Below are positions 43,242 to 52,159 of a DNA stretch of 64,000 bases, in pieces. The notes under the pieces were generated by a model. It searched no databases, was not told the DNA's origin, and was given only the letters and a program-made list of their open reading frames with translations. Both the position numbers and the translations under genes were made by a program. The stretch's first letter is position 1, and every line of letters starts with the position of its first letter. The DNA comes from Acidobacteria bacterium Ga0077534 (GTDB lineage: Bacteria; Acidobacteriota; Blastocatellia; Pyrinomonadales; Pyrinomonadaceae), in contig LNEI01000009.1 in the NCBI GenBank assembly GCA_001464455.1, positions 79,784-143,783 of the forward strand, given 5' to 3'.

Positions 43242-44903
43242 TCAGATCTCGACGACGGTCGTTACGATAACAGGTTTCGATCCGAGTTCTTTTTGCACGA
43301 AACGCTTGAGATGAACCCGTAGGTTTTCCTTGAACATCGTGCGGTCGCGGACGTGCTCGGGCTTCATGTTAGTGATGGCTTTGACAATAGAATCTCGAGC
43401 TTCCTTGCCGAACCCATTTATCGGGTCGATGCCGGCGACGCCTTCGAAAGTGATCTGCGGGTCACCGAGTATTTTTGTCGTATTCTTCTCGAGGGCAACG
43501 ACCAACGAGATGGCGCCGCCATAGGCGAGTTTCTTTCGCTCGCGAACGGTTTCGTACTCGATCTCTTCCATCGACTCTTCGTCGATGAAGGTCTTATAAA
43601 GTTCGCGTTTCTCGACGACCTGACAGCTCAGCTCGTCGATCTCGAGGACATTGCCGTTTTCGATGAGCACGATGTTGTCGTCATTGTATCCGGCGACGTG
43701 GTTTTTGATAAATTCCTTTTGGCGGAAGAGCATTCGGTATTCGCCGTGGATCGGGATGACGAATTTGGGCTTCGAGGTCTCAACCATGATGCGAATATCT
43801 TCCTGCGAAGCGTGACCCGAGACGTGGACGAGCCGGCGTTTTTCCTCGATGATATTCGCACCTCGTTTGTAGAGATTGCCGATCAGGCGGCTGATGCTCT
43901 TTTCATTGCCGGGAATGATCCGGGCAGAAAGCACGACCGTGTCGCCTTTCTCTACCTCCATCCCTTTGTAAACGCCGGTAGCGAGATTCCAAAGGGCAGC
44001 CCGCATTTCGCCCTGCGAACCCGTTACGAGATAACAGATCTCGTCGTCATCGAGCTTGCGTGCGTCGCTAAGTTCGATCATCGTGTCGCCGACAATGTTC
44101 AGAAGCCCCATGCCCGACGCTATCTCGACATTCTTCTGCATCGACCGCCCGAGCACACAAACGCGTCGTCCGTACTTGCGAGCAATGTCAAAAACGATCT
44201 GAAGCCGATGAAGCGAGGAAGAAAAGGTCGAAACGAACAAACGCCCTTCCGTTTGCTCAAATATCTCTTCGAATGCAGGAATTACCGCCTGTTCGCTCGG
44301 AGTTCGACCCGGGACCGTGGCGTTTGTCGAGTCGCAAAGCAGAGCAAGAACGCCTTCGTCACCAATGCGGCCGAGCATTTCGAGATCGTAGGGCTTCCCT
44401 ATCACCGGCGTGTCGTCGATCTTGTAGTCGCCGGTGTGGATGATCGTTCCGACAGGCGTATGGATGGCGAGCGAAAAACATTCGACCAGCGAATGCGACG
44501 CATGGATGAACTCGATCTCAAATACGCCGATCTTGATTCGGTCTTTGGCCTTAACGCGATGCAGGAGCACATCGTTCATCATGTTGTACTCATCCAAGCG
44601 CTTCTCAGTCAGAGCCAAAGTGAAGCGCGAAGAGTAAACTGGCAGGTTAAATTTCTTGAGAATGTAGGACAGCGCCCCGATGTGGTCTTCGTGGCCGTGT
44701 GTCAGAATGATAGCGGTAAGATCGTCGCGATATTCTTCGAGAAAATCAAAATTCGGTATCGAAATATCGACCCCGTAAGGCGTTTCCTCAGGAAAACCCA
44801 TGCCCGCATCAACGACGATCATTTCGCCGCCGTAACGGATTCCCATGCAGTTCATCCCAAATTCGCCAATGCCGCCAAGCGGTATGATCTCTATTTTGCC
44901 CAA
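43242..44903 (-). CDS. rnj: Ribonuclease J
   Basis: The 553-residue metallo-beta-lactamase / beta-CASP nuclease has the metal motif ILTHGHEDHIGAL (about 67-79), the second motif IHTGDYKID, and DSTNATVPGRTPSE. Beta-CASP features include FSSSLHRLQ and VSGHASQEDI near 365. RNase J acts as a 5'-3' exonuclease and endonuclease in RNA decay and rRNA maturation. The start is a TTG (44903), with AGGAG about 6 nt upstream. An antisense frame of 520 codons covers almost the entire gene and is rejected as a shadow. Confidence 0.95.
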   Translation of the reverse strand: MGKIEIIPLGGIGEFGMNCMGIRYGGEMIVVDAGMGFPEETPYGVDISIPNFDFLEEYRDDLTAIILTHGHEDHIGALSYILKKFNLPVYSSRFTLALTEKRLDEYNMMNDVLLHRVKAKDRIKIGVFEIEFIHASHSLVECFSLAIHTPVGTIIHTGDYKIDDTPVIGKPYDLEMLGRIGDEGVLALLCDSTNATVPGRTPSEQAVIPAFEEIFEQTEGRLFVSTFSSSLHRLQIVFDIARKYGRRVCVLGRSMQKNVEIASGMGLLNIVGDTMIELSDARKLDDDEICYLVTGSQGEMRAALWNLATGVYKGMEVEKGDTVVLSARIIPGNEKSISRLIGNLYKRGANIIEEKRRLVHVSGHASQEDIRIMVETSKPKFVIPIHGEYRMLFRQKEFIKNHVAGYNDDNIVLIENGNVLEIDELSCQVVEKRELYKTFIDEESMEEIEYETVRERKKLAYGGAISLVVALEKNTTKILGDPQITFEGVAGIDPINGFGKEARDSIVKAITNMKPEHVRDRTMFKENLRVHLKRFVQKELGSKPVIVTTVVEI

Positions 44904-44976
44904 TTTAACTCCTAAAAGCTGAAGGAAGAGAATAACATTTTTAACCGTGCTTCGTGCGAGTATCTACGAATTATAC

Positions 44977-45006
44977 TTGACAAAAAAGTCTTGATTGAAA
45001 TATTCT
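44977..45006 (+). promoter_or_regulatory. Sigma-70 type promoter upstream of the manganese riboswitch
   Basis: A perfect -35 box TTGACA lies at 44977-44982 and a -10-like TATTCT at 45001-45006 (18-bp spacer). The aptamer begins five bases later, so the leader transcript would start very near the riboswitch P1 helix. The site sits between the divergent rnj and terB-like genes. Confidence 0.65.
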
Positions 45007-45010
45007 CTTT

Positions 45011-45119
45011 TAGGTTCGGTAGGGGAGTAGACGCCTTGCAGTAAAAAAAGGCTTCCTGATGTCGTCAATACGTTGGCTTTTGTTAGCTGACCGGCGTGGG
45101 AAATAAGTTTCGAGACCTA
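45011..45119 (+). promoter_or_regulatory. yybP-ykoY-type manganese riboswitch aptamer
   Basis: The leader contains the hallmark GGGGAGTAG (45022-45030) and a second conserved block CTGACCGGCGTGGG (45087-45100), which I recognise from the yybP-ykoY aptamer. The P1 helix pairs TAGGTTCG (45011-45018) with CGAGACCTA (45111-45119), with one bulged G. The 3' strand of P1 is shared with the 5' arm of a downstream terminator, so aptamer and terminator exclude each other. In characterised members Mn2+ stabilises the aptamer and turns expression on. The downstream TerC-like gene is a classical target of this riboswitch. Confidence 0.85.
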
Positions 45120-45156
45120 TCGCGGTAACACATCCGCGATGGGTCTTTTTCCTTTT
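45113..45156 (+). terminator. Riboswitch-controlled intrinsic terminator
   Basis: Arms at 45113-45125 and 45134-45146 form a 13-bp stem with one G-T pair around an 8-nt loop and are followed by five T (45146-45150) and another TTTT. The left arm overlaps the 3' side of aptamer P1 (45111-45119). This gives a transcriptional ON switch when the metal-bound aptamer forms. The TerB-like start lies 34 bp downstream, preceded by AGGAGG at 45175-45180. Confidence 0.85.
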
Positions 45157-45189
45157 CGCGGATAGAGAACGCGTAGGAGGACGAAACTT

Positions 45190-46179
45190 ATGGAAGCTTA
45201 TGTTAAAGCTGGGCTAGATGCGTACAAGAGACGCAGGCAAGCCGAGCAGGAATTTCTGGAACACACCGAACGTGTCAAATGCCTTTTGGGTCTCGAAACC
45301 CATGAAAGGCATGAGACCGCACTGCTTTTCTTGTCACCGCTCGTATCGATCGCGTGGACCGATGGTCGCGTGGCTCGACATGAACAAGACTACATTTTGC
45401 GGGCTGCTGAGATATACGGCTTACTCGAAAACGAGTCTGCGTATGCGGTTCTAATGCAGCGACTGCACTCCAAACCACACCATCGCGATATCGAGGTTTG
45501 GTGGGATGAGATCACGGACGTCTGCCGCATGATGGATTCGGGCGAATGTGCCGCACTTGTATCTCACCTGTATCAGCAGATCAAGTTCATCGGCGAATTT
45601 AGTGAGAAATATACATTTGGCCTCTGGCGAGCTCACCGCCTCGGCGAAAACGAGCAGGAAACGCTCGATCAGTCAGAAAAGCGTATCGCTGAGATCCTTA
45701 CCGATCAGGCTCGCATTTCGTCTGACGGCATCAGCGATTCCGAGTTGCTGCGTTTGGTGCCGCTAGTGCGAGTAGCATGGGCAGATGGGAGGGTTACTAA
45801 GCGCGAGCGACAGATGATCTTCTCCTCTGTCGTTGATATGCACATACCCGAATCTGAACAGAATCTCCGCACGCTTGCCCGTTGGCTTGATATACGTCCC
45901 GAGGACGAATTCTTTAAGGCGGCTCTTCACGGCCTCCGTGATCATTTGGCGAGTCATCCCGAAGATGAATCACGTTCGGCCAAGTACGACATCCTTTCGC
46001 GATGTGCAACCGTCGCCGAAATGTCGGGCGGAAACGGCACTTTCGAGGCTGGGGGTGAGCGCATCTGCGAAGAAGAGATCGACACGGTAAAACACATTGC
46101 AAAGATCCTTACTGACGTTATGGCAGACCCAGATCAGGTCAAACCAAATTCAATAGCGAAAGGAGGCGAAAGGGTTTAA
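45190..46179 (+). CDS. Protein with two TerB-like domains
   Basis: This 329-residue cytoplasmic protein carries two copies of a helical TerB-like unit. The first is around 40-130 with LLFLSPLVSIAWTDGRVARHEQDY in parts, the second around 180-260 with LLRLVPLVRVAWADGRVTKRERQ. The DGRV element is the conserved Asp-containing metal-linked motif of TerB and DjlA-like proteins. A linker and a C-terminal tail of ~50 residues complete it. The Shine-Dalgarno AGGAGG is strong. It is the first gene after the manganese riboswitch, 40 bp before the TerC-like gene. Function unknown; metal sensing or a chaperone-like role at the membrane is inferred. Confidence 0.8.
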   Translation: MEAYVKAGLDAYKRRRQAEQEFLEHTERVKCLLGLETHERHETALLFLSPLVSIAWTDGRVARHEQDYILRAAEIYGLLENESAYAVLMQRLHSKPHHRDIEVWWDEITDVCRMMDSGECAALVSHLYQQIKFIGEFSEKYTFGLWRAHRLGENEQETLDQSEKRIAEILTDQARISSDGISDSELLRLVPLVRVAWADGRVTKRERQMIFSSVVDMHIPESEQNLRTLARWLDIRPEDEFFKAALHGLRDHLASHPEDESRSAKYDILSRCATVAEMSGGNGTFEAGGERICEEEIDTVKHIAKILTDVMADPDQVKPNSIAKGGERV

Positions 46180-46219
46180 CTGAGCTCGTTTGAGCACTCA
46201 CTAACCTTAGGTAATTACT

Positions 46220-47239
46220 ATGAATCTATTTCCTTTTGCAGAATATTGGTGGTTTTACGGGGCATTTCTCGTCTTTGTCCTGCTGATGCTCGCGCTCGAC
46301 CTGGGCGTCTTTCATCGCAAAGCACACGAGGTTTCGTTTAAGGAGGCGAGCATCTGGAGCGTAGTCTGGGTATCCCTCGCGCTCGTCTTCAATTTCCTTT
46401 TATATAGATACGCCCTCTGGAAATTCCCTCAGGACGAGCGTTTACTCGCTAATCCGGCATTTGTTCCGGATCTAGCAGCTTGGAACGTCTCGCTCGAGTT
46501 CCTGACCGGATATATCGTCGAAAAATCGCTCTCGGTGGATAACATCTTTATCTTCGTGATGGTCTTCGCGTATTTTGCGATACCCCCGAAATACCAGCAC
46601 CGCGTCCTTTTCTACGGCATTCTCGGGGCATTGATATTCCGCGCGATCTTTATCGCTATGGGTTCTGCTCTGATGCAGTTTCACTGGGTTATCTATCTCT
46701 TCGGAGCGTTCCTGATCATTACCGGTATAAAGATGTTCTTCGCTCATAATGAGGAGATCGAACCGGAAAAGAACTTCCTGATCAGGATATTTCGAAGGTT
46801 CATGCCAGTTTCGCCTAGACTGGACGGCAAGAACTTCTTCTCAAAGATCGACGGCCGCTGGCACGCGACACCGCTTTTTATCGCCCTGCTTTTCCTTGAG
46901 GCGACGGATATCATTTTCGCCGTCGACAGTGTACCTGCGATCTTTGCCATTACCAGCGAACCGATGATCGTTTTCACCTCAAACATCTTCGCGATCCTTG
47001 GCTTAAGGTCGATGTACTTTATGCTTGCCGGTGTGATCGATAAGTTCTACCTCCTAAAATACGCACTCGCGATAGTGCTCGTATTCGTTGGGCTTAAAAT
47101 GGTTTGGCTCAATGATGCGTTCGGCGGGAAATTTCCCATCTCGTATTCGCTGGGCTTTATCACTGTAACAATTTTCCTCTCTATCATCCTGTCACTCATC
47201 TTTCCACGTTCTGAAAAACTCGCCGAGGAGAGTAACTAA
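46220..47239 (+). CDS. TerC / Alx family membrane protein, probable manganese exporter
   Basis: The 339-residue protein has about eight membrane helices. Family marks are ALDLGVFHRKAHEVSFKEA near 26-44, SLSVDNIFIFVMVFAYFAIP near 103-122 with the Asp-Asn pair in a helix, and EATDIIFAVDSVPAIFAIT near 227-245, which repeats the same polar helix pattern. TerC-type proteins in other bacteria export or load manganese. The riboswitch upstream supports a manganese role here. It ends 22 bp before a strong hairpin. Confidence 0.9.
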   Translation: MNLFPFAEYWWFYGAFLVFVLLMLALDLGVFHRKAHEVSFKEASIWSVVWVSLALVFNFLLYRYALWKFPQDERLLANPAFVPDLAAWNVSLEFLTGYIVEKSLSVDNIFIFVMVFAYFAIPPKYQHRVLFYGILGALIFRAIFIAMGSALMQFHWVIYLFGAFLIITGIKMFFAHNEEIEPEKNFLIRIFRRFMPVSPRLDGKNFFSKIDGRWHATPLFIALLFLEATDIIFAVDSVPAIFAITSEPMIVFTSNIFAILGLRSMYFMLAGVIDKFYLLKYALAIVLVFVGLKMVWLNDAFGGKFPISYSLGFITVTIFLSIILSLIFPRSEKLAEESN

Positions 47240-47260: not shown

Positions 47261-47297
47261 GCGTCGCGGTTTCAAAAAATATTTGAAACCGCGACGC
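47261..47297 (+). terminator. Perfect 16-bp hairpin after the terC-like gene
   Basis: The arms at 47261-47276 and 47282-47297 are perfect inverted copies around a 5-nt A/T loop. The stem ends the terB-terC unit. A T-run (TTTT) appears only about 13 nt further on, so it may be an intrinsic terminator of weak type or an RNA stabiliser. Confidence 0.6.
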
Positions 47298-47350: not shown

Positions 47351-48037
47351 ATGAAGAATAAACTTACGGACGAGCAGATCGACATGGTGTTGACCAGATT
47401 GATGGCCGATACGGTAGTCGATGAATCGGTCATTGAGGAGATCTCGACCTCTCCCACCACATGGTGGGCCGTAAAAAGAAATATCGCGCAGAATTCACCT
47501 GCGGCCTCTCCTTGGCCGCCTACATCATTATGGCGCCGCTTCTTTCCATTCGCGGTACCAGCCCTCGCGGCTCTCGTAGTTGCCGTAGGCATGGTCTGGA
47601 TCTCGTCAGATCGTACCGCACTGAAGAATGAGATAACGGACGCAAGGCCAACCTTTGCGGAAAAGAAGGATGAAAATCTCAGTGGGCCGACCGTTTCTAA
47701 TGACCAAGTGCGATCGGAAAATTCGGTTAGCACGACCGGAGAAGCCCCGATCAACAAGCGTGTGGTCAAACAACCGCAAAGATCAGCAGGTTACGCGAAA
47801 GCGAAAAGAACGATCGAATCCAAGGCGGGTGAGACAGAGAAGGTTTCGACGGAATTCATCGCTCTCAGCCACGCTGGCGGACCTGAAAGCGGGCAGGTAA
47901 TTCGTGTAAAAGTTCCGAGTTCCATGATGGTCAGTCTAGGCGTGGTACCAAACGTCGATAAGCCGTCGAGCCTGATCGATGCCGAGGTCGTGGTGGGCGA
48001 TGACGGGCAAACCCACGCGATCCGCTTTATAAGATAG
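47351..48037 (+). CDS. Single-pass membrane protein, possible anti-sigma-like factor
   Basis: The 228-residue protein has a short cytoplasmic N-terminus (TDEQIDMVLTRLMADTVVDESV), a Pro/Trp stretch, a membrane helix near 65-83 (AVPALAALVVAVGMVWI) and a charged periplasmic domain ending with VVGDDGQTHAIRFIR. No zinc-binding HxxxCxxC motif is seen. The layout and the location two genes before an RNA polymerase sigma factor hint at an anti-sigma role, but nothing in the sequence proves it. It starts 23 bp upstream of the EF-hand gene. Confidence 0.55.
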   Translation: MKNKLTDEQIDMVLTRLMADTVVDESVIEEISTSPTTWWAVKRNIAQNSPAASPWPPTSLWRRFFPFAVPALAALVVAVGMVWISSDRTALKNEITDARPTFAEKKDENLSGPTVSNDQVRSENSVSTTGEAPINKRVVKQPQRSAGYAKAKRTIESKAGETEKVSTEFIALSHAGGPESGQVIRVKVPSSMMVSLGVVPNVDKPSSLIDAEVVVGDDGQTHAIRFIR

Positions 48038-48059
48038 ACCGGTGTTAGGAGTTTTAATT

Positions 48060-49202
48060 ATGAAAAGACGATCAATATTTTTCACTTTAGTTCTAGTGTT
48101 TCTAACAACGGGCATTTTGGCACAGCGTCCCGACCGGCCGCAGCGGCCAGGTCCGCCTGAACCACGTCAGCCCGGAGGCTGGGTGGCCTCGATAGATACG
48201 AATGGTAACGGCAGTATCGAGGCTGAAGAGTTCGAAGCGGCCATTGAACGCACTTTCACCGCCCTTGATCGCAACGGTAATAAGACGCTCGACCAAGGCG
48301 AGGCAAAGCGGCCCGGTGGTGTGCCAGGACAGCCCCCGCCGCGGCCGTCCGATGACGGCAAGAGAATGCTGCCTCCATTCTTCTTCAACGATATAGCGGA
48401 TCCGAACGGCACTTTCAGTCGAGAGGAATTCGAACGGATCGTCCGGAAGGTCTTTGCAGATATGGATAAGAATGGTGATGGCCGCCTGAATGAACCTGAG
48501 ACTCGCCGCCTACCGCCGCGGCCCGACGGACCGAAACCGCCGCCGCCGCCCGAGGCTCCAAATGCACGTTTCATTGGTGCTGAAGCTAGATTTGGAGACA
48601 GGCTTGTCAAGGGTGCTCCGTTCTCCGCTGAAACGGTTATCGAAGATACCAAAAGACTTTTCGACGGAACCACCGCGACTAAGGAGCGACGAGGAGCTTT
48701 CTATCGCGACGGCGAGGGACGCACGCGGCGTGAACAGCCGCTTGAACACGTCGCGGGATTTTCCGTGGTCGGACCGGATAACAAGCCGCAGACGTTGATC
48801 TTTATCAATGATTTCTCAGTTCGGCAGCAGATATTCCTTGATGTTAATAACAAGGTCGCTCGACGAAGCCCGCTGGGGCCAGGCCCAGGCCCACTAGACC
48901 TTAGGCCTGGAACCAATGAAGAAAGCCTCGGCACAAAAACCATCGAAGGCATCGCCGTCGAAGGGACTCGAACCTCCTTCGAGATACCGGCCGGCCGCTT
49001 TGGAAATGACAAAGCGATGAAAGCCTACACAGAACGTTGGTTTTCAAAGGAACTACAGGTGATGGTCATGTCGCGAAGTCTTGACCCTATCGCCGGTGAG
49101 CATGTATTCAAGCTTGTCAACATCAAACTCGGCGAGCCGAACCCGAACCTCTTTACCGTACCAGCGAACTATAGACTCGAAGGCCCAGGACGACCGCGTT
49201 GA
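48060..49202 (+). CDS. Secreted EF-hand protein
   Basis: The start at 48060 is preferred because it gives a clean signal peptide (RRSIFFTLVLVFLTTGILAQ); a start six codons upstream is less likely. Calcium loops follow: DTNGNGSIEAEE, DRNGNKTLDQGE and DKNGDGRLNEPE, plus a degenerate one (DPNGTFSREE). Proline-rich linkers separate them. The C-terminal ~200 residues have EGIAVEGTRTSFEIPAGRFGN and RWFSKELQVMVMSRSLDP, a pattern I recall from exported acidobacterial proteins of unknown role. It likely binds calcium in the periplasm or outside. Total length 380 residues. Confidence 0.82.
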   Translation: MKRRSIFFTLVLVFLTTGILAQRPDRPQRPGPPEPRQPGGWVASIDTNGNGSIEAEEFEAAIERTFTALDRNGNKTLDQGEAKRPGGVPGQPPPRPSDDGKRMLPPFFFNDIADPNGTFSREEFERIVRKVFADMDKNGDGRLNEPETRRLPPRPDGPKPPPPPEAPNARFIGAEARFGDRLVKGAPFSAETVIEDTKRLFDGTTATKERRGAFYRDGEGRTRREQPLEHVAGFSVVGPDNKPQTLIFINDFSVRQQIFLDVNNKVARRSPLGPGPGPLDLRPGTNEESLGTKTIEGIAVEGTRTSFEIPAGRFGNDKAMKAYTERWFSKELQVMVMSRSLDPIAGEHVFKLVNIKLGEPNPNLFTVPANYRLEGPGRPR

Positions 49203-49238
49203 TACGGGTACTTTGAACATAAAGAGATTTAAACGAAA

Positions 49239-49883
49239 ATGCTCGACGAGGTTCTAAACATTTCAGTGCAGACGAACGCAGAATATCTCGGGATCGAGAT
49301 GCACGACAACGACATAACGTCCGATGAGATACTCGTCCAGCAAGTGCTCGCAGGCGACGGATCGGCGTATGAGCAGATCTTTGAAAGGCACCGACGGACG
49401 ATCACGCGGATAGTTGCAAAGTTTTTTCGGGAGAAAGCGGACATCGAAGAGGCGGTGCAGAAGGCGTTTACGAAAGCGTATTTCTCTCTCAGTCGCTTTC
49501 GTGGCGGCGATTCATCGCTAAAAAGCTGGCTCGCAAAGATAGCTGTAAATGTTTGTTACGACGAGTTTAGAAGACGGCGGCGCAAGAGCGAAAGTCTCTT
49601 TGCCGAGATGAGTGACGAGGAGGCGGAGTTTGTTGAAACGATCGCCGACGGCCGAACGGCGTCCGCGGATAATTCACTGATCGCCGAGCAGCTAATAGAC
49701 AAGATGATGGCCGGACTAAATCCGGAAGATCGCGTCGCTCTCTCGCTCGTTTATTCGCAGGAGTATTCGCTCGACGAGGCGGCCGAGGTCATCGGTATCT
49801 CAACAAGTAACCTGAAATCAAGGCTTTTTAGGTGCCGCAACCATTTGCGGAAAAGATTTGGACATTTTTTCAGCCCTAAGTAG
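49239..49883 (+). CDS. RNA polymerase sigma factor, sigma-70 family (ECF-like)
   Basis: The 214-residue protein has region 2 (AYEQIFERHRRTITRIVAKFF, and AFTKAYFSLSRFRGGDSSLKSWLAKIAVNVC in parts), which binds core enzyme and -10 DNA, and region 4 with a helix-turn-helix (EYSLDEAAEVIGISTSNLKSRLFRCRNHLRKRF). Between them is the short linker of ECF factors. A later start at MHDND (20 codons in) is possible. It lies 36 bp after the EF-hand gene on the same strand, with a putative membrane regulator two genes upstream. Confidence 0.88.
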   Translation: MLDEVLNISVQTNAEYLGIEMHDNDITSDEILVQQVLAGDGSAYEQIFERHRRTITRIVAKFFREKADIEEAVQKAFTKAYFSLSRFRGGDSSLKSWLAKIAVNVCYDEFRRRRRKSESLFAEMSDEEAEFVETIADGRTASADNSLIAEQLIDKMMAGLNPEDRVALSLVYSQEYSLDEAAEVIGISTSNLKSRLFRCRNHLRKRFGHFFSPK

Positions 49884-49942
49884 GGCGAGACGAGGATAGC
49901 AGCAAGGAAATAGCAGCGGATTTCACCGCTCGTGGAGGTTGA

Positions 49943-52159
49943 ATGAGATACATCAAGATATCGATGTTAGTTATAATTGTGTGCCTTTTTGCCGGCTTTC
50001 ATATGATGAAGGTCAGCAAAGTAAAAGGGCAGACCACAAGTTTATCGGCGCCTGGTGGACTTACGGCTTCGGACAACTCTTACAATTTAAAGATCGGCCT
50101 CCACTGGGATCCCGTCCTTAATGCAACCATCTACCGTGTGTTCAGGGCAGCGACTCTTGATATCTCATCAGCGACCGAGGTCGGCATCACCCCGGCGAAC
50201 ACATTCTTTGATCTCGGAGCACCCGCTGGACAGCAGTTGTTCTATTGGGTGCGTGCTGAAAACGGAGCTGTCGTGAGTCAGTTCAGCGATTCCGACGCGG
50301 GCAGCCGCACTGGTACCGCACAGCAGGGCCCGGTCCCTGCGCTAGAACCACCGCCGATGCCACCCGGCAATCCGGTTACCGCGGCTAAGACATTTCTCGG
50401 AAAGGCCCTGTTTTGGGACGAGCAGCTATCATCGACCGGAACTGTTGCCTGCGGAACGTGTCATCATGCGGCAAATGGCGGCACGGATCCGCGATCGGTC
50501 ACCCTCGCCGCTGCTTCGACGCATCCCGGCCCCGATGGCACTTTGAATACTGGAGACGATATTCGAGGCTCGGTAGGCGTGCCTTCGAACAACTCAGATG
50601 GTACCTATTTCCAATCGGAGTTCGGGTTGAATGAGCAGGTCACGAACCGAAAATCGATGTCCCATATCAATTCGGCGTATCCAAATCTGCTTTTTTGGGA
50701 TGGCCGGGCAAATAACGTATTCCGCGATCCGATAACGAATGCGATCATCCTGAATAACGGGGGAGCACTCGAAAACCAGGCAATGGGCCCTCAAACATCA
50801 ACCGTCGAAATGGCACACAGTGGGCGTACATTAACCGATGCCGCCGCGAAGATAGCCCTCTCGAAGCCACTCGCTCTTAGTTCCTCCGTCCCGACCTCGC
50901 TATCCAACTGGCTTAGCGGCCGAACATATCCTGAGTTGTTTCAGGAGGCTTTTGGAACACCGGAAGTAACCCCGGCCCGCATCGCTTTAGCAATAGCAAC
51001 TTATCAGCGAACACAATTCAGCGACCGAGCGCCCATTGACTTAGCAAACGCCGGCATCGCTCCTCTGACCGATCAGGAGCAAAGAGGGCGCGGCGTTTTT
51101 AATGCGAGCAGCTGTAACGTCTGTCATGCGGGAAATCTCTTTACCGACAATTCCTTCCGATATATCGGTGTGCGACCACAAAATGACGATCTGGGGCGTT
51201 TTGAGGTAACGGGCAACAACAATGACCGCGGGTCATTTCGCGTACCGAGTTTGAGAAACGTCGAACTGCGTGGATCGTTCTTTCATAACGGCAGATTCAC
51301 GACACTAAACGAGGTCGTTGCTTTTTACAATCGGGGCGGCGATTTTAACGCACCAAACAAGCCTGTCGCACTGATCAGGCCACTGGGCCTCAACGCCAAT
51401 CAGCAGGCTGACCTGGTCGCCTTTTTGCGGCGGCCGCTCACCGATCCCCGTGTGGCAGCAGAAGCGGAAAGATTCGATCGTCCGATACTTTATATGGAAT
51501 CGGACCGAAAGCCGACCGTTACCGGCAGTGGAAGAGCGGGCTCGGCATCGATCACTCCGCAGATCAAGGCCATTTCGCCCCCAATTGTTGGAAATACGCA
51601 GTTCACGGTCTCTCTATTTGGAGCTCTTGGAAATGCGCCGGCAACTCTTGTTATTGATTCGGCAGATCCGGGTCTGGGTGCAAGCGTTCCAACGACCGGC
51701 AGCTTTGCGAGAGTTGAGACGAATACTCAGAACACAGGTGCCGGAAACGGATGGGCCTCAGTTGTTGTGGCTATTCCGAATAGCACAACGGTACAGAACC
51801 AGACCTATTTCGCAAGATGGTATGTTCAGGATCCCGGGGCGATAGGTGGTTTTTCTGTAAGTCCCGCGGTGCAATTCACTGTATTTGGAACCGCGACGGA
51901 AAGTTCTGCGATAACGATCTCGGGCAGGGTGTTTACACCTGAAGGACAGAGCCTTCGGAACGCAACCGTCGCTTTGACAGATCCCGCCGGAGCAACCCGC
52001 CGCGTTACGACGAGTTCGTTTGGTGTTTACGCGTTCGAAAGTGTTGTCCCAAACCAGACGTACATTGTTTCAGTGGCTTCGAAACGCTATCGCTTTGGCG
52101 CCCAGGTCGTCACGCCAGCGACGAATCTTGCTGAGCTTGATTTCGTTGGGCTGCAATGA
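49943..52159 (+). CDS. Exported di-haem cytochrome c peroxidase-like protein with extra domains
   Basis: The 738-residue protein has a signal peptide (MLVIIVCLFAGF). Residues ~37-120 form a fibronectin-III-like domain (LHWDPVLNATIYRVFRAA). Residues ~130-510 are a MauG/CcpA-type core with two haem motifs, CGTCH (C170, C173, H174) and CNVCH near 393. FRVPSLRNVELRGSFFHNGRF is a typical segment. The C-terminal ~95 residues (ITISGRVFTPEGQSLRNATVALTDP, FGVYAFESVVPNQTYIV) look like a carboxypeptidase-regulatory fold. The core reduces peroxide or oxidises protein residues. The stop is immediately next to the convergent rsmA stop. Confidence 0.87.
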   Translation: MRYIKISMLVIIVCLFAGFHMMKVSKVKGQTTSLSAPGGLTASDNSYNLKIGLHWDPVLNATIYRVFRAATLDISSATEVGITPANTFFDLGAPAGQQLFYWVRAENGAVVSQFSDSDAGSRTGTAQQGPVPALEPPPMPPGNPVTAAKTFLGKALFWDEQLSSTGTVACGTCHHAANGGTDPRSVTLAAASTHPGPDGTLNTGDDIRGSVGVPSNNSDGTYFQSEFGLNEQVTNRKSMSHINSAYPNLLFWDGRANNVFRDPITNAIILNNGGALENQAMGPQTSTVEMAHSGRTLTDAAAKIALSKPLALSSSVPTSLSNWLSGRTYPELFQEAFGTPEVTPARIALAIATYQRTQFSDRAPIDLANAGIAPLTDQEQRGRGVFNASSCNVCHAGNLFTDNSFRYIGVRPQNDDLGRFEVTGNNNDRGSFRVPSLRNVELRGSFFHNGRFTTLNEVVAFYNRGGDFNAPNKPVALIRPLGLNANQQADLVAFLRRPLTDPRVAAEAERFDRPILYMESDRKPTVTGSGRAGSASITPQIKAISPPIVGNTQFTVSLFGALGNAPATLVIDSADPGLGASVPTTGSFARVETNTQNTGAGNGWASVVVAIPNSTTVQNQTYFARWYVQDPGAIGGFSVSPAVQFTVFGTATESSAITISGRVFTPEGQSLRNATVALTDPAGATRRVTTSSFGVYAFESVVPNQTYIVSVASKRYRFGAQVVTPATNLAELDFVGLQ

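Follow-up and report, generated by a model that had tools for sequence, protein, structure and literature searches.

The DNA analysed here, a stretch of 64,000 nucleotides from contig LNEI01000009.1 of Acidobacteria bacterium Ga0077534 (hereafter the window), belongs to a genome of 4.2 Mb that is labelled G000 in the genome comparisons, and close relatives of its proteins are found in Pyrinomonadaceae, Acidobacteriota. A leader of the yybP-ykoY riboswitch type with an intrinsic terminator is followed there by a gene for a tandem TerB-like protein and, 40 bp after the stop codon of that gene, by the start of a gene for a TerC/Alx-type membrane protein (Table 1). The arrangement is probably, though by no means securely, an operon in which an aptamer without a P4 helix and a terminator sharing one strand of P1 would act as a switch, turned on by high cytosolic Mn2+, for the joint production of the two proteins, with the TerB-like protein as a likely soluble accessory.

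Table 1. Features of the riboswitch-TerB-TerC locus, with coordinates in the window.
Feature	Position	Strand	Basis or detail
RNase J gene (rnj)	43242-44903	-	divergent, left of the leader
Sigma-70-like promoter	44977-45006	+	pattern scan; TTGACA 44977-44982, TATTCT 45001-45006
yybP-ykoY-type aptamer	45014-45125	+	covariance model R1 (83.3 bits, E 3.4e-20), whose 25 training leaders include this one
P1 5' strand CGGUAGG	45017-45023	+	pairs with 45116-45122
L1 core GGGGAGUAG (= GGGGAGTAG)	45022-45030	+	sequence
P2 hairpin GCCUU...AAGGC	45033-45052	+	folding
P3 arm	45053-45102	+	P3.1 = 45053-45058/45097-45102; P3.2 = 45072-45077/45086-45091
L3 UCGUCAAUAC	45062-45071	+	sequence; with CGG 45092-45094 (CCGG 45091-45094)
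AAGUUUCG	45105-45112	+	folding and shuffles; complementary to CGAAACUU (45182-45189) beside the start codon
Intrinsic terminator	45112-45150	+	14-bp stem 45112-45147, T-run 45146-45150; -25.6 kcal/mol folded alone
P1 3' strand CCUAUCG	45116-45122	+	common to P1 and the terminator 5' arm
Ribosome-binding site AGGAGG, then CGAAACTT	45175-45189	+	sequence; AGGAGG 45175-45180, CGAAACTT 45182-45189
Tandem TerB-like gene, 329 amino acids	45190-46179	+	open reading frame and profile matches
TerC/Alx-type membrane protein gene, 339 amino acids	46220-47239	+	open reading frame and profile match

The original prediction of a yybP-ykoY-type leader agrees with the core motifs, with the covariation of helices P1, P2 and P3, and with the stability of the fold. 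In addition to the L1 core, a second core stretch, CTGACCGGCGTGGG, is found at 45087-45100, and the 191-nucleotide leader (45005-45195) folds with a z of -5.5, none of 200 shuffles being equally stable. Because the terminator stem uses the P1 3' strand, P1 and the terminator are mutually exclusive, and the sharing of bases that had been claimed for them is borne out. A plain sequence pattern retrieved 27 rows in 22 of the 162 genomes of the class, and the reversed pattern retrieved none; 25 of these rows were aligned by plain MAFFT (alignment A2, not fitted to the structure being counted), leaving out L047, which is the same site as L031, and L042, a near-copy of L037. In A2, 85.6% of cells are paired versus 67.8% after shuffling, the double-change cells number 117 versus 34.8, and sliding of the partners destroys the signal. 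For P1, 80.6% of the cells pair across the 25 leaders, with double changes at four of its seven pairs, and the covariation of P1, P2 and P3 also holds in A4, an alignment fitted to the model. Both the L1 core letters and the L3 adenosine are identical in 25/25 aligned leaders, all of which had been selected by a pattern containing them; in the window this adenosine presumably lies at 45067.

A covariance model, R1, was built from the 25 Acidobacteriota leaders, including that of the window, with no E. coli sequence. Upstream of alx in E. coli K-12 it recognises the P3 arm, through model positions 34-80 and with E 9.5e-5 in 119,511 bases, and on E. coli mntP its E of 0.91 is at the edge of chance. 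In the class, R1 recognises 72 sites in 58 of the 162 genomes (E up to 0.01), whereas the Rfam family model of yybP-ykoY, RF00080, yields at the equal threshold one match in the 162 genomes, with 18.7 bits and under its cut-off. The Rfam 15 model of this riboswitch is therefore nearly blind in one bacterial class (1 versus 58 of 162 genomes). When 396 genomes of the phylum were scanned, class included, 25 had an R1 match (E up to 0.001), and two of these do not belong to the class. The weakest match (G068:C10, E 0.0047) is without the expected target and possibly false; both the total of 72 sites and that of 74 include it. All 72 in-class sites have a terminator-like hairpin that overlaps the 3' strand of P1, against 13.5 expected from mononucleotide shuffles, the sole control. 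Moreover, TTGAC occurs within 60 nucleotides upstream in 56 of the 72 in-class leaders (4.3 expected, mononucleotide shuffles); the promoter-like pattern, with 2 found and 2.1 expected by chance, is weak taken alone.

The downstream DNA of 74 sites (72 in the class and 2 outside, the training leaders among them) was searched with BLAST, using as seeds proteins of the window and of these same loci, so target types without a seed count as none. TerC lies behind 55 of the 74 leaders: at 37 of these no other gene is recognised ahead of TerC or next to it, at 9 an M48 peptidase gene comes first, at 6 a tandem TerB gene comes first, at 1 TerC follows a universal stress gene, and at 2 TerC comes first with a TerB-like gene after it. 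The other targets are P-type ATPases (6), secreted-type proteins (9), M48 alone (2) and a CNNM/CBS transporter (1), with none recognised at the last site (1). A metal switch is supported because the R1 sites, picked by leader sequence and not by gene, mostly precede metal-transport genes. It seems quite improbable that the leader, as a diverged yybP-ykoY relative, senses another ligand or acts mainly via pH or Mg2+. The absence of P4, the short P1 of several leaders and the fact that the ligand is read from sequence would accommodate such a view, but the L1 and L3 letters are nearly all as in E. coli alx, the L3 adenosine is retained throughout the 25 pattern-chosen leaders, and most targets are metal exporters.

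An Mn2+-on transcription switch is predicted because the window has the P1/terminator arrangement of L. lactis, in which, according to PMC11087558, binding of Mn2+ to the aptamer stabilises P1.1 and so keeps the 3' strand of this helix out of the terminator. At low Mn2+, the shared strand would fold into the terminator and transcription would stop before the TerB gene, while at high Mn2+ L1 and L3 would dock around the metal, P1 would close, the terminator would be blocked and RNA polymerase would read on into the TerB and TerC genes. TerC would then move Mn2+ out of the cytosol, as reported for Alx, which is annotated in E. coli as an Mn2+ exporter, and for TerC proteins of B. subtilis, to which PMC10550928 attributes both Mn efflux and the metalation of exoenzymes. 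For TerB the most likely role, offered as a guess, is that of a soluble partner contacting TerC on the cytosolic side of the membrane, where its D58/E65 and D199/E206 might hold or pass metal, or gate the exporter. The sequences themselves show the covarying fold, the strand common to P1 and the terminator, the gene order and its conservation; Mn2+ as the ligand, the ON direction, co-transcription and transport by TerC are inferences, the last of them drawn from Alx and MeeF/MeeY. Induction of terC by Mn has been described for the riboswitch-linked mneA/terC of Vibrio (PMC13274385). In addition, the complementarity of AAGUUUCG to the start-codon region extends over 8 nucleotides in the window and in G038 (0/500 shuffles) and over 6 in G032 (9/500), and is at chance level in G025 (73/500), G030 (302/500) and G033 (222/500). 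This pairing may provide a second, translational lock in the sub-lineage of the window, G038 and G032 only.

The two encoded proteins correspond to those proposed originally. As a whole protein, the 329-residue TerB-like product exceeds the cut-offs of both PF05099 (31.4 versus 24.4 bits) and PF04391 (38.2 versus 29.6 bits); in a six-frame search of the genome, where one stretch was scored, PF05099 gave 23.4 bits, just under 24.4. It has one repeat at roughly residues 45-96 and another at roughly 186-237, an alignment of its first half with its second gives E 1e-8, and both repeats contain the motif W-x-[DE]-G-x5-E, with conserved acidic positions at D58/E65 and D199/E206. Searches of the TerB protein against NCBIfam gave nothing over cut-off, a whole-protein Foldseek search gave no match at E 0.001, and, among solved structures searched by sequence, the TerB alignment had nothing better than a match at chance level (E 2.4) while TerC had no match up to E 1. 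No TerD-like protein is present among the seven window proteins scanned, and therefore the locus is not a classical ter operon. The TerC protein scores 402.6 bits with TIGR03718 (TerC/Alx; cut-off 246.4), is 47% identical to E. coli Alx over 306 columns, retains the acidic stretches EKSL-VDN and D-IFAVDS-PA, and falls under the YkoY-type cut-off (78.6 versus 138.5 bits).

A tandem TerB gene was found in 7 of 79 genomes (the window's own included), and 6 of the 7 (G000, G038, G032, G025, G030 and G033) have the order switch-TerB-TerC, a contig end cutting TerC in G030; in the seventh, G031, tandem TerB lies apart from TerC. A set of named genomes gave ten tandem-TerB loci and two weak partial matches, with the order at 5/10 and neither switch nor TerC at the other 5/10. 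Since six of these ten are again G038, G025, G033, G030, G032 and G031, the combined sample comprises 11 distinct loci with context, and the conservation of order that had been anticipated holds at six of them. There are 33 two-domain TerB homologues, some of them 48-55% identical to the window protein and closer to it than four of the six; the context counts refer to the 11 loci. Single TerB-like genes, identified because their products resemble the window protein or one another, stand close beside TerC at five further loci (G028, G116, G112, G031 and G054), and the two that were scanned are under the Pfam cut-offs (TerB in G028, 13.8 versus 24.4 bits; DUF533 in G031, 18.1 versus 29.6). A scan of the class with PF05099 found 28 places in 22 of 162 genomes and missed several diverged TerC-adjacent TerB genes (e.g., those of G032 and G025), so it was not used for adjacency.

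These distributions bear on two other explanations of the TerB gene. It is very doubtful that the gene is a chance passenger between switch and exporter: in four related genomes (G004, G026, G005 and G037) the switch and TerC lie next to rnj with no TerB, and TerB evolves much faster than the adjoining TerC (window versus G032, 41% versus 90% identity), but the order is kept at six loci, with TerB identity down to 36% and an open frame in each. A long TerB branch leads to G000 and G038 in the tree. Co-regulation without contact, in which TerB would be an independent cytosolic stress protein wanted at high Mn2+ and merely sharing the operon, is a possibility that should be taken seriously, even if we think it rather unlikely. 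Distant tandem-TerB genes occur apart from TerC, beside two-component-system genes (named by eye) and in some cases beside carbonic anhydrase or universal stress protein genes, and TerC driven by the switch is mostly without TerB; however, the single TerB-like genes adjoin TerC, before or after it, at the five other loci.

Several observations weigh against reading the locus as a manganese-on operon with a TerB accessory. With respect to the leader, the Rfam match that the original prediction had expected did not appear: RF00080 gave nothing in the window at its gathering threshold, nothing at E up to 10 on 44880-45260 or in the whole 4.2 Mb genome, and nothing at E up to 5 in 11 related loci, though 7/11 carry such a leader. 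The P4 hairpin between P3 and P1 is absent from the window leader, which does not show the four-way junction with P4 described for solved members in PMC6754395, a source that also treats the role of the L3 adenosine in yybP-ykoY riboswitches. Moreover, in the leaders that precede tandem TerB in G025, G030, G032 and G033, P1 judged by eye comprises no more than some 2-4 continuous pairs, and the Vibrio mneA/terC showed no read drop at the riboswitch (PMC13274385). With respect to the partnership, 5 of the 11 distinct tandem-TerB loci have neither switch nor TerC, and most TerC loci under the switch are without a recognised TerB, implying that TerC does not need TerB. For a Pseudomonas ter operon transferred to E. 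coli, PMC8779313 reports that tellurite resistance did not require terB; in favour of a partnership, the same text, citing a TerC interactome study, presents a TerC-TerB complex as the proposed central unit of classical ter operons.

The missing RF00080 match is not decisive, because known members fall short as well: the E. coli K-12 alx leader has no match, and mntP reaches 41.6 bits against a cut-off of 45. Rfam was set aside as the judge of membership only after alx had failed too. A match to RF00328 on 44880-45260 (E 8.9) was dismissed as due to chance. The window leader was filed as a yybP-ykoY variant because P4 is absent; by eye, some leaders of other families do have P4-like hairpins, those of G067 and G049 among them.

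The nine secreted-type targets of the switch family are a DUF2490 protein, a 190-residue protein without a Pfam family over cut-off, and carbonic anhydrase (signal sequences by eye), found at L083, L084, L086, L090, L096, L097, L104, L109 and L118. These sites suggest a manganese-controlled envelope or bicarbonate regulon. They also bear on the idea that the main task of TerC is to supply secreted enzymes with Mn2+ at the Sec translocon, as reported for MeeF/MeeY of B. subtilis, with TerB as a cytosolic adaptor for the metal or the nascent protein. We consider this unlikely. The switch family stands before secreted-type genes at 9/74 sites and M48 peptidase genes at 11/74, and TerC-dependent metalation of exported enzymes is reported in PMC10550928, but nothing here indicates Mn use by those enzymes, and TerC proteins of the Alx type form a subfamily distinct from those of the YkoY (MeeY) type, for which the window protein scores 78.6 bits against a cut-off of 138.5. 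A more far-reaching proposal, and a distinctly unlikely one, is a two-part metal-delivery machine, in which the double TerB would be a cytosolic Mn carrier or gate for TerC and TerC would feed the secreted enzymes under the same switch (carbonic anhydrase, DUF2490 barrel, 190-residue protein and M48 peptidase). If true, it would provide both a native job for TerB and a manganese-controlled envelope regulon.

Some further sites of the switch family were recorded. An M48 metallopeptidase gene takes the place of TerB between switch and TerC at L091, L106, L117, L119, L128, L132, L135, L148 and L155. A second switch in G000 (contig 18, 659171-659275; L046, L109) precedes a secreted-type protein of 197 residues without a Pfam family over cut-off, and an open reading frame downstream of it looks, by eye, like the Sbt_1 bicarbonate transporter of L159. 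L102 (G028 contig 85) has two switches in one cluster, ordered switch-TerC-TerB-like-switch-TerC. At L156 (G031 contig 1), about 11 kb hold genes for an Sbt-type transporter, carbonic anhydrase, TerB-like, TerC, DUF2490 and CNNM/CBS proteins, and the gap between TerB and TerC contains a degenerate switch-like sequence by eye, to which R1 gives no score.

Regarding the history of the locus, a cassette exchange between TerB and TerC was considered when identities seemed conflicting, and was rejected, as the trees do not conflict: the group G000+G038+G032 is present in the TerB tree (support 69/73), and for TerC its p-AU is 0.43. The rnj and TerC trees do conflict, rnj rejecting G000+G038+G032 (p-AU 2e-28) and TerC rejecting G038+G030+G033 (p-AU 1e-4), in tests whose groups were chosen after the identities had been seen. 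Judging from these sequences, an in-place exchange of either the operon or its neighbour probably occurred at the G038 locus (L094, L158). On the 3' side of TerC, a perfect 16-bp inverted repeat, GCGTCGCGGTTTCAAA...TTTGAAACCGCGACGC, occupies 47261-47297, with no T-run directly behind it, and the window continues at 47351-52159 with genes for a 228-residue protein without a Pfam family, an EF-hand protein, an extracytoplasmic function (ECF) sigma factor and a di-haem peroxidase. Relatives of the 228-residue protein also lie 3' of TerC in G038, G032, G033 and G004. A search for tandem repeats near the locus found nothing relevant.

TerB and TerC owe their names to tellurite, a toxin that is rare. 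The position of a TerB gene between a manganese-type riboswitch and TerC offers a concrete, testable candidate for a native role and would link the TerB proteins to manganese handling. Among proteins already described, the window TerB resembles both the TerB of ter operons (PF05099) and DUF533 (PF04391) in exceeding the cut-offs of the two families, and differs from the former in having two repeats in one protein and no TerD-like companion among the scanned window proteins. The window TerC, for which transport is predicted, sits behind a tandem TerB gene, unlike E. coli Alx. In B. subtilis, MeeF and MeeY belong to the TerC family and meeY is under an Mn-responsive riboswitch, according to PMC10550928, the main text of which mentions TerB 0 times. 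Titles in the open literature on yybP-ykoY with TerB, Acidobacteria or carbonic anhydrase, and on TerB with riboswitches, include none describing this operon; P4-less members themselves were not searched for, and absence from print is unproven. The pairing of this riboswitch with TerC is already known, while a form without P4, the near-blindness of RF00080 in this class and a TerB gene under a manganese-type switch appear to be new as far as these open papers go. With yybP-ykoY (RF00080), and especially with E. coli alx, the leader shares L1 GGGGAGUA(G), L3 UCGUCANUAC with CCGG, the P3 arm and the TerC target, and with the L. lactis switch it shares a P1 strand common to the terminator; it is unlike yybP-ykoY members in having no P4 between P3 and P1, no RF00080 match, and a tandem TerB gene as the first gene under its control.

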